NCBI GenBank assembly: GCA_905250025.1
Contig: CAJNOJ010000355.1
Coordinates: 7,956-71,955, forward strand
From: Adineta ricciae
Lineage: Eukaryota; Rotifera; Eurotatoria; Adinetida; Adinetidae
Length of the DNA: 64,000 nucleotides
Direction of reading: 5' to 3'
Below are positions 21,950 through 24,900 of this stretch, piece after piece. Made by a program: the position numbers and the translations under genes. Position 1 is the first letter of the stretch, and every line of letters starts with the position of its first letter. The notes under the pieces were generated by a model. The model was not told the DNA's origin. It worked only from the letters and a program-made list of their open reading frames with translations, and did no database searches.

Positions 21950-24900
21950 TTAATAAGAAGTTTCTCGATCAATAAATGATCCAGGAAATTTTCGAATTAA
22001 CAATTTTCTCCATTCATCATAAACAAAAACAAGTAAAGTGAATGGTAACGGTAAGAACCACCAATGTAATCTAAAAAATATCTTAACAATTGAAAATTTT
22101 CTCAAAAGAAAAAAAAGAATATACTTTAAAGGATACATCATTAGACCACGATTAATATATGGAGTATATGAAATGATAATTGCTAAAACAGTTTCAAAAA
22201 TAATACTCATATTTAATACTTGATTTCTAAAAAAATAGATTTTGTATAAAGAAGAATTTTATTCAAATAATTTGAATAACATACGACATTCCTTGTCGAA
22301 AAAGAGAATTTCGCCGAGATTTACAACACAACAGAACAGTCCATTGAACAATAACAACAGTAACAAAGAAAGCTGTGTGACATGTATCTTCCAATGCTTT
22401 GCGTTGTTCATAAGACTGAAGAAAGATCAAAGAAATCATTTGCTATAGAAGAAAAGAAAGTGAAATCAAACCCATTCTTGTCCATAAGAATCTTCTAAAT
22501 CATTAACAGCTCTTGAATCCCATGATTTTCGTAATCCTAATAGTCTTGAAGGTAGAAATCCATTTTCTGCCATAACAACTGTATAAACAAAAAATCCGCC
22601 ACCCGCTTGAATCATTCCTAATTGTCCATAACTCATCCAAATTAATCGATCTGTAGCTAAATGTTCACGTTTAGCGTCTCTTGGCGGGCGTTGCATAATA
22701 TCTGATTCCGCTCTTTCGTATGCTAATGAAATAGCAGGAAACATATCCGTACCCAAATCGATACATAAAATTGCAATTGTTCCTAAAAAGAAAAGAAAAC
22801 TGAAGTGTAAGTTTGAACACAAAAATGAAGTGCATACCTAATGGTAAAGGAATTTCGGCGATCATATAAAACAAAAACGGAGCTAATTCAGGAATTTTCG
22901 ATGATAATGTGTAACAAATAGATTTTTTCAGATTATCAAAAATTAATCTTCCTTCTTCAATTCCGGTGATGATCGATGCAAAATTATCATCCAATAGAAT
23001 CATATCTGATGCTTGTTTACTCACATCTGATCCTGTAATTCCCATTGCAATTCCAATATCCGCTTTTTTCAATGCTGGTGAATCATTCACTCCATCACCA
23101 GTCACAGCAACTATTTCTCCTAGCCTCTGACAACTTTCCACAATAATCAACTTTTGCTGAGGACTTGTCCGTGCAAAGACCACTTCTTCATGAGTTTTGA
23201 TAACTTCATCCAATTGATCTTTAGTTAAATTTTTCAGCGCATTTCCATGAATAACACACGCTTTTGTTGTTGTATCATTGATATTTTCTAATAGTGTCTC
23301 TGTTGGACTTTGATCTGTAATAATTCCTGTGGCTCGAGCAATCGCAGCTGCAGTTAATGGATGATCACCTGTAACCATCAAAATTCGGATACCAGCCGAT
23401 CGACATTTACTTACAGCTTGTGCAACGTTCACACGTGGTGGATCAATTAAAGAAATTAAACCTAAAAATCTGAGACCAGTAGTTGGAAAATTGAAATTTT
23501 CATAATATGGATTAACATGAAAATTGATTGTATCACAATCGAATGGAAAGTCTCGAGGATATTGATTTAATGGTAAACGATAATCAGCAAATGCTAAAAC
23601 ACGTTCACCAAGATTGCCTAAGACAAAAAAAAAGTTGTCTTGATCATTCGTTTGTAAATGAAACCTTTTTACTTAATTCTTTGAATGCTTTTTCATATTC
23701 TTTTTTCCAATAATCATTAAAGCCGATTTCTGAGCCATCAACAAATATTGTTGAGCAATTTTTAAGGATTTTCTCTGGTGCACCTTTCATAACAAGTAAA
23801 TATCGATCATCATTGTCATTTGTCGAATGAATTGAAAATTGATAACGATTTGATGAAGAAAATTGAACTTCGCAAATCTTTGGATTTATTGCTCGATATG
23901 TCGACACACTTCCGACCTGAAATTCATGAATATTTCTTCAAAATAGGATCCAATGTTTTACTGTAAATCACCTACAGTTGCTTCCATACATTTCAGAATG
24001 GCTGTTTCACTTGCGTCACCTTCACTTTGCCGTTGTAAAATAGGTTTAGTAAGATTGTCTGGATCATCTTTAAATATAGCTGTGTTACATAACATTGCAC
24101 AACGTGTTAACGCTTTCCAACAATGAGAAAATCTTGTATAATTTGATTCTAAATCAAACGAACATATTGAATTCACAACTTTCAATATTCAAATTCGTTT
24201 ACTCGATTGAAAAGCTTCGATATCTGCATCAATGATATGATTATCAAACCACATATGTGCAACAGTCATTTGATTTTGTGTTAATGTTCCTGTTTTATCT
24301 GAACAAATGATTGTTGTTGAGCCAAGAGTTTCGATTCCTTCCAAATTTCTTACAAAACAATTTTTTCGTGCCATTCGTTGTGCTGTTAATGTTAAACAAA
24401 CCTTGGAATTACAAACGATAATCTAATCTTCTCTTAAAGAAATTCACTCACAGTAACAGTGGCTAGAAGACCTAAAAATGAAAAAAAAAAACAAAATTTG
24501 TTGGAAAAAATGAAAATGAAAGTTTTAACCTTCAGGAACCTGAGCAACGATTACACTGATAAGAAAAACAACGGCTTCAACATATGTATAGCCAAGTGAG
24601 AGAGAACAGATGCAAAAGATCACACCAACAACAACAGCAATGATCGTTATAATACGAATGAAATGATTGATTTCAGTTGCAATTGGTGTTGTACCCGATT
24701 GAACACCTAAAATCGAAATTCTTTAAATAAAATTTCCAAGATTTTCTTCTCAATCAAACCCGCAGTTAAATTTGCAATTCTTCCAATGAATGTTTTGTCA
24801 CCAGTACGAATAACAACACCAATGCATGAACCTACATGAAATTCAACATAAAAAGTTTCAAAAAATGTCAAATAAACCTTCAACAGCAAATGTTCCGAAA

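Follow-up and report, generated by a model that had tools for sequence, protein, structure and literature searches.

Textbook Na,K pumps exchange ions three-for-two, and the question raised by this locus is whether a P-type ATPase of the rotifer Adineta ricciae, with unusual residues in its ion-binding region, would do the same. We examined a 64,000-nucleotide stretch of the A. ricciae genome (contig CAJNOJ010000355.1, positions 7,956 to 71,955 of the forward strand; hereafter the window), in which an earlier note had recognised a Na,K-ATPase alpha-subunit gene with Gln and Lys at the places of conserved asparagines in M4 and M5, and had proposed a pump of changed stoichiometry or ion preference. 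Our analysis of the gene, of its relatives in the same genome and of pumps with known structures suggests that the encoded protein probably carries fewer ions in each cycle than a textbook pump.

The gene model, together with the exon that carries the phosphorylation motif, is located as follows.

21950..25900, reverse strand: P2C ATPase alpha-subunit gene with 18 exons and 17 GT-AG introns, encoding 1015 amino acids plus a stop codon
24203..24401, reverse strand: exon with the phosphorylation motif DKTGTLT at protein position 364 (gene model and translation)

The reading frame is open throughout in this model, with no internal stops; the predicted first exon, of 24 nt, has the weakest support of the 18. 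Compared with the NCBIfam profile TIGR01106 (Na,H/K antiporter P-type ATPase alpha), the protein scored 1546.9 bits against a curated cut-off of 946.1 bits, in a match covering model positions 3-997 of 997, and judged by its sequence it is a P2C (Na,K/H,K-type) ATPase alpha subunit. Its top PDB match over the whole length was human Na,K-ATPase alpha3 (1392 bits, 62% identity). Further Na,K alphas came next; the brine-shrimp (Artemia) alpha2KK scored 1304 bits and H,K pumps about 1145-1171. DKTGTLT, TGES, KGAPE and TGDGVND are catalytic motifs of P2C ATPases, and these, along with DPPR, were all found in the translation, in line with the earlier view that the rest of the catalytic machinery is intact. 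The same full-length P2C architecture and catalytic motifs are shared with canonical Na,K alphas such as human alpha3 and pig alpha1.

Matches to the beta-subunit profile PF00287 numbered 21, on several contigs of the same genome. Some of these have genes for company that appear SERCA-like by eye, on the same contig in C71 and C95, and within about 1 kb at L050 (G000:C14:195500-202500). Within the window, a single-exon open frame of 428 amino acids lies downstream of the pump gene (20045-21331, reverse strand) and had no Pfam match at E 0.001, while short multi-copy elements at about 27256-27390 and at 18557-18840 are matched on many of the genome's contigs.

We next located the ion-site residues by alignment to human alpha3, using pig numbering throughout (human alpha3 number + 3). 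The segments and codons concerned are listed here.

24530..24706, reverse strand: exon with M4 (VAQVPEG; gene model)
24540..24542, reverse strand: Gln codon CAG at 324, canonically Asn (alignment to human alpha3)
22838..23617, reverse strand: exon encoding the latter half of the cytoplasmic domain together with M5 (SSKIPE; gene model)
22902..22904, reverse strand: Ser codon TCA at 774, canonically Thr, a site III backbone ligand (alignment and ligand table)
22896..22898, reverse strand: Lys codon AAA at 776, canonically Asn, a site I ligand (alignment and ligand table)
22472..22782, reverse strand: exon with M6 and M7 (gene model)
22757..22759, reverse strand: Asp804 codon, kept, in M6 (alignment)
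22745..22747, reverse strand: Asp808 codon, kept, in M6 (alignment)
22285..22415, reverse strand: exon with M8 (QWTVLLCCK), in which Gln923, Trp924 and Cys930 are kept (gene model and alignment)
22335..22337, reverse strand: Val codon GTT at 926, canonically Asp, in M8 at site III (alignment and ligand table)
22125..22226, reverse strand: exon with M9, in which Glu954 is kept (gene model and alignment)

Five residues are altered, namely N324Q, T774S, N776K, D926V and, as the fifth, T781A. Glu327, Tyr771, Thr772, Ser775, Pro778 and Glu779 are unchanged, as are Asp804, Asp808, Gln923, Trp924, Cys930 and Glu954 from M6 to M9. Both substitutions described earlier, Gln in VAQVPEG and Lys in SSKIPE, were borne out by the codons and the alignment, as well as by a second gene copy described below; the window contains a single instance of a degenerate VAQVPEG pattern, against an expectation of 0 from 100 shuffles. 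D926V and T774S had been absent from the earlier note.

The ligand table of PMC5026471 places N776 in site I for E1 as well as E2, assigns D926 to site III (in its simulation column) and gives 322, 323 and 325 as backbone ligands; 324 is absent from this table both as a side chain and as a backbone ligand. N324 is therefore probably not a direct ion ligand, and N324Q is likely to be a secondary change. Of the two asparagines said earlier to help form the ion sites, N776 thus keeps its place, at site I, and N324 probably loses it. Compared with the 14 ligand residues of the table, the window gene differs at three (T774S, N776K and D926V) and agrees with canonical Na,K alphas at 11, as it does at Trp924, Cys930 and Glu954; the complete site I, II and III ligand set of a canonical 3Na:2K pump is not present. 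Changes are not in excess at these ligands: 3/14 (21%) stands against 169/721 (23%) in the background, which comprises the 721 positions at which the human row and four canonical alphas of the same genome all agree. The case consequently rests on the kind of change and not on the count, and the telling changes, as read from the aligned residues, are a charge added to site I and a carboxylate lost from site III, both kept in two gene copies.

The second of these copies, L040 on contig C172, is the homologous copy of the window gene and has Gln324, Ser774, Lys776, Ala781 and Val926, all five. The flanks of the window gene are matched on C172 on both sides and are essentially collinear, with one small multi-copy piece out of order. 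Over 1013 codons, the two copies differ at 15 amino acids, none of them at a tabled site, with dS 0.14, dN 0.0076 and dN/dS 0.054 (rounded, 87 synonymous and 18 non-synonymous differences); even the Gln324 codon differs synonymously, being CAG in one copy and CAA in the other. Three other alpha pairs in the genome gave dN/dS values of 0.059 (L041/L042), 0.070 and 0.063 (canonical pairs) at dS 0.12-0.13, and the similar dS suggests that each of the four pairs consists of homologous copies, all of the same age. The window gene pair is under strong purifying selection. A sequencing or assembly error is an unlikely source of the altered residues, since the second contig differs at 87 + 18 sites yet has the same residues, so that the error would need to have happened twice; pseudogene decay is likewise unlikely, given the intact reading frame and low dN/dS. 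In the genomic sequence of L040, the intron after exon 14 is apparently GC-AG, compared with GT-AG in the window gene.

We then compared ten modelled alpha-like loci of the same genome (the window gene and L040-L048), drawn from the best-scoring gene-search candidates, so that the family may have further members; these models are spliced alignments and probably contain minor mistakes, as in L043 and L046. Among the ten loci and human alpha3, Q324, S774, K776, A781 and V926 were found only in the window gene and L040. The idea that every alpha of this genome has these residues, a check suggested in the earlier note, is rejected by this count of two out of ten modelled loci. L043-L046 are canonical at the listed ligands and form two pairs, with dS of about 1.1 between them. 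L041 (G000:C218:161500-168500) and L042 (G000:C443:16000-22500) are canonical in M4 and M5 and have only D926V, making them candidates for pumps lacking Na+ site III. A different combination was seen in L047 (G000:C104:239500-247500), which has Lys775, the H,K place, together with Asn926, Asn930, Val778 and Ser323; it scored 1517.6 bits with TIGR01106, its best PDB match was Na,K alpha3 (1322 bits, against 1206 for the non-gastric H,K pump), and its near-identical matches lie on C104 only. In L048 (G000:C66:387000-394500), DKSVL replaces DKTGT, TGDGVND is absent, and the model contains one stop and has a poor N-terminus, so we read it as a pseudo-pump or pseudogene.

In a tree of ten alpha rows, from which L048 and alpha2KK were excluded and in which the ion-site columns were masked and the human row was blanked past pig 905, the window pair occupied a long unplaced branch of 0.56 changes per column. 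A shared origin of Val926 in the window pair and in L041/L042 was neither shown nor rejected by this tree (p-AU 0.28). Two loci outside these ten were also noted. In L052 (G000:C31:248000-254500), FLPVGLP takes the place of VPEG, so that Glu327 is missing; this divergent P2C-like ATPase scored 647.5 bits with TIGR01106, below the 946.1 cut-off. L053 resembles it, in a model with 6 stops.

With Lys near the ion sites of M5 and a disabled site III, the window pump would, by analogy, be like H,K-ATPases, although the residues differ. As set out in PMC9463140, Lys791/794 of H,K pumps sits at the Ser775 place and is termed a tethered cation, and Arg930 neutralises site III in these pumps, which keep Asp926. 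The window gene instead has Ser775 followed by Lys776, and Cys930 with Val926. This agrees with the earlier statement that H,K pumps place Lys one residue earlier; Tyr in M4, also mentioned there, is the residue of the gastric pump, where the window gene has Gln324.

The brine-shrimp pump that carries Lys in both M4 and M5, which the earlier note had rightly described as one of reduced stoichiometry, moves 2 Na+ per 1 K+ according to PMC10812997, and our alignment of alpha2KK (PDB 8k1l) placed its Lys residues at 324 and 776. The window gene shares Lys776 with it but has Gln324 and Val926, whereas alpha2KK has Lys324 and Asp926, and because Asp926 is kept there, alpha2KK is not a full model for the window pump. 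Residues 776, 780, 925, 984, 1009 and 1012 are common to the two proteins, unlike human and canonical alphas. Lys776, Leu780 and Thr925 co-occur in both, Leu780 being found also in L047, and positions 776, 780 and 925 may be co-adapted. Over the last 117 residues, the best PDB match of the window protein is alpha2KK (157.9 vs 143.2 bits), which is not the case for the whole protein. Over the 201 columns covered by the 8k1l fragments, alpha2KK matches the genome's canonical alphas at 75-76% versus the window gene at 65%, and these columns lend no support to the idea that the window gene descends from an ancestor resembling alpha2KK. The likeness of the two is a probable case of convergence, with common origin still conceivable.

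Taken with a probability of about 0.5, our main reading is that the window gene encodes a working P2C pump in which only one of the three ion sites is complete and which would exchange about 1 Na+ (or H+) for 1 K+ and would be electroneutral. According to this model, the amine of Lys776 would occupy site I as a tethered cation, a role also proposed for the Lys of the brine-shrimp pump and Lys791/794 of H,K pumps, and would remove one ion from each half-cycle, taking 3:2 to 2:1. The change of Asp to Val at 926 would abolish Na+ site III and remove one further Na+, taking 2:1 to 1:1. Site II, made up of the backbone at 322, 323 and 325 with Glu327, Glu779, Asp804 and Asp808, would still bind one ion in each direction, and Gln324 would be a probable accommodating change near the M4 kink. 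The altered stoichiometry or ion preference proposed earlier is thus consistent with Lys776 in an intact P2C pump, but D926V, which had been overlooked, shifts the stoichiometry to be expected. The relevance to osmotic stress and drying suggested in the earlier note gained no support from our analysis. As for the outward ion, which would be Na+ or H+, we lean towards Na+ because Trp924 and Cys930 are retained.

Mutant pumps described in the same papers bear on these steps. The alpha3 substitution Asp923Asn, equivalent to D926N, lowers Na+ affinity more than 100-fold and leaves K+ unaffected, and a Na,K-ATPase with Cys930Arg loses site III Na+ and transports electroneutrally (PMC9463140). Na+-activated phosphorylation persists with sites I and III disrupted, and site I/III mutants that have no tethered cation are unresponsive to K+, with no K+ cycling (PMC10812997). 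Because these neutral mutants fail to cycle with K+, a single-site pump might be inactive unless compensated. The site III support residues Trp924, Cys930 and Glu954 are all retained, which would be surprising in a pump whose site III had lost all function; a weak residual site could be formed at Val926 by Gln923 and backbone oxygens.

Such residual binding at site III, or else the binding of a second Na+ at site I/II, is what would let D926V be tolerated in a pump of reduced stoichiometry like alpha2KK, with Lys776 replacing one ion and about 2 Na+ moved per K+, electrogenically. The Lys776 aligned at the same place in 8k1l, the six shared residues, the C-terminal 117-residue match and the 2:1 ratio given in PMC10812997 all speak for this reading; we nevertheless consider it doubtful, as alpha2KK departs from the window gene at Lys324 and Asp926 and lies closer to the canonical alphas over the 201 columns. 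Alternatively, site III loss together with a tethered cation near site I might confer H+ selectivity, yielding an H+/K+ exchanger that converged on H,K-ATPases with other residues. PMC9463140 predicts that a pump becomes strictly H+-selective only if site III and site I (through tethered Lys794) are both lost, and the window gene has one change of each sort, but the Lys at 776 and not 775, Trp924 and Cys930 of Na,K type, and PDB scores favouring Na,K (1392 for alpha3) over H,K pumps (about 1157-1171) make an H+/K+ exchanger improbable.

The long branch to the window pair would suit a non-transporting or signalling paralogue with another role, whose ion sites drift freely. We hold this to be quite improbable, in view of the intact catalytic motifs, the other ligands being kept and a dN/dS that matches the low values of the canonical pairs, in contrast to L048, where catalytic motifs were lost. 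An ordinary Na,K-ATPase, running near 3:2 with tolerated lineage-specific substitutions, would accord with ligand changes being no commoner than background divergence; however, the charge that Lys brings to a ligand position of site I, the missing site III carboxylate and the strong site III defects described in PMC9463140 upon neutralisation of the Asp render this very hard to credit.

Returning to the single-site reading, we propose tentatively, at rather less than even odds, that the window gene is a natural single-site P2C pump reaching 1:1 by a route other than that of H,K pumps (Lys776 in place of 775; Asp926 lost and not neutralised by Arg), and that it belongs to a graded set of pumps in this genome. 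If true, the set would comprise 3:2 pumps (the four canonical alphas), pumps with site III lost (L041/L042), pumps with sites I and III lost (the window gene with L040) and, in L047, an independent design of the H,K-like type. Natural controls are present in the same genome, in the form of L041/L042 with one change only and L043-L046 with none. Open-licence literature searches for 'bdelloid' with 'ATPase alpha subunit' found no paper, and those for 'rotifer' with 'K-ATPase' found no title on pump sequences. The number of ions that P2C pumps move per cycle has so far been studied largely through made mutants, and the window gene would offer a natural case kept by selection. In it, a putatively tethered Lys close to site I is combined with the disappearance of the Asp of site III, the kind of pairing that PMC9463140 predicts to be required for H+ selectivity. 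If the 1:1 reading is true, electroneutral exchange would be reachable through residues other than those of the H,K pumps.
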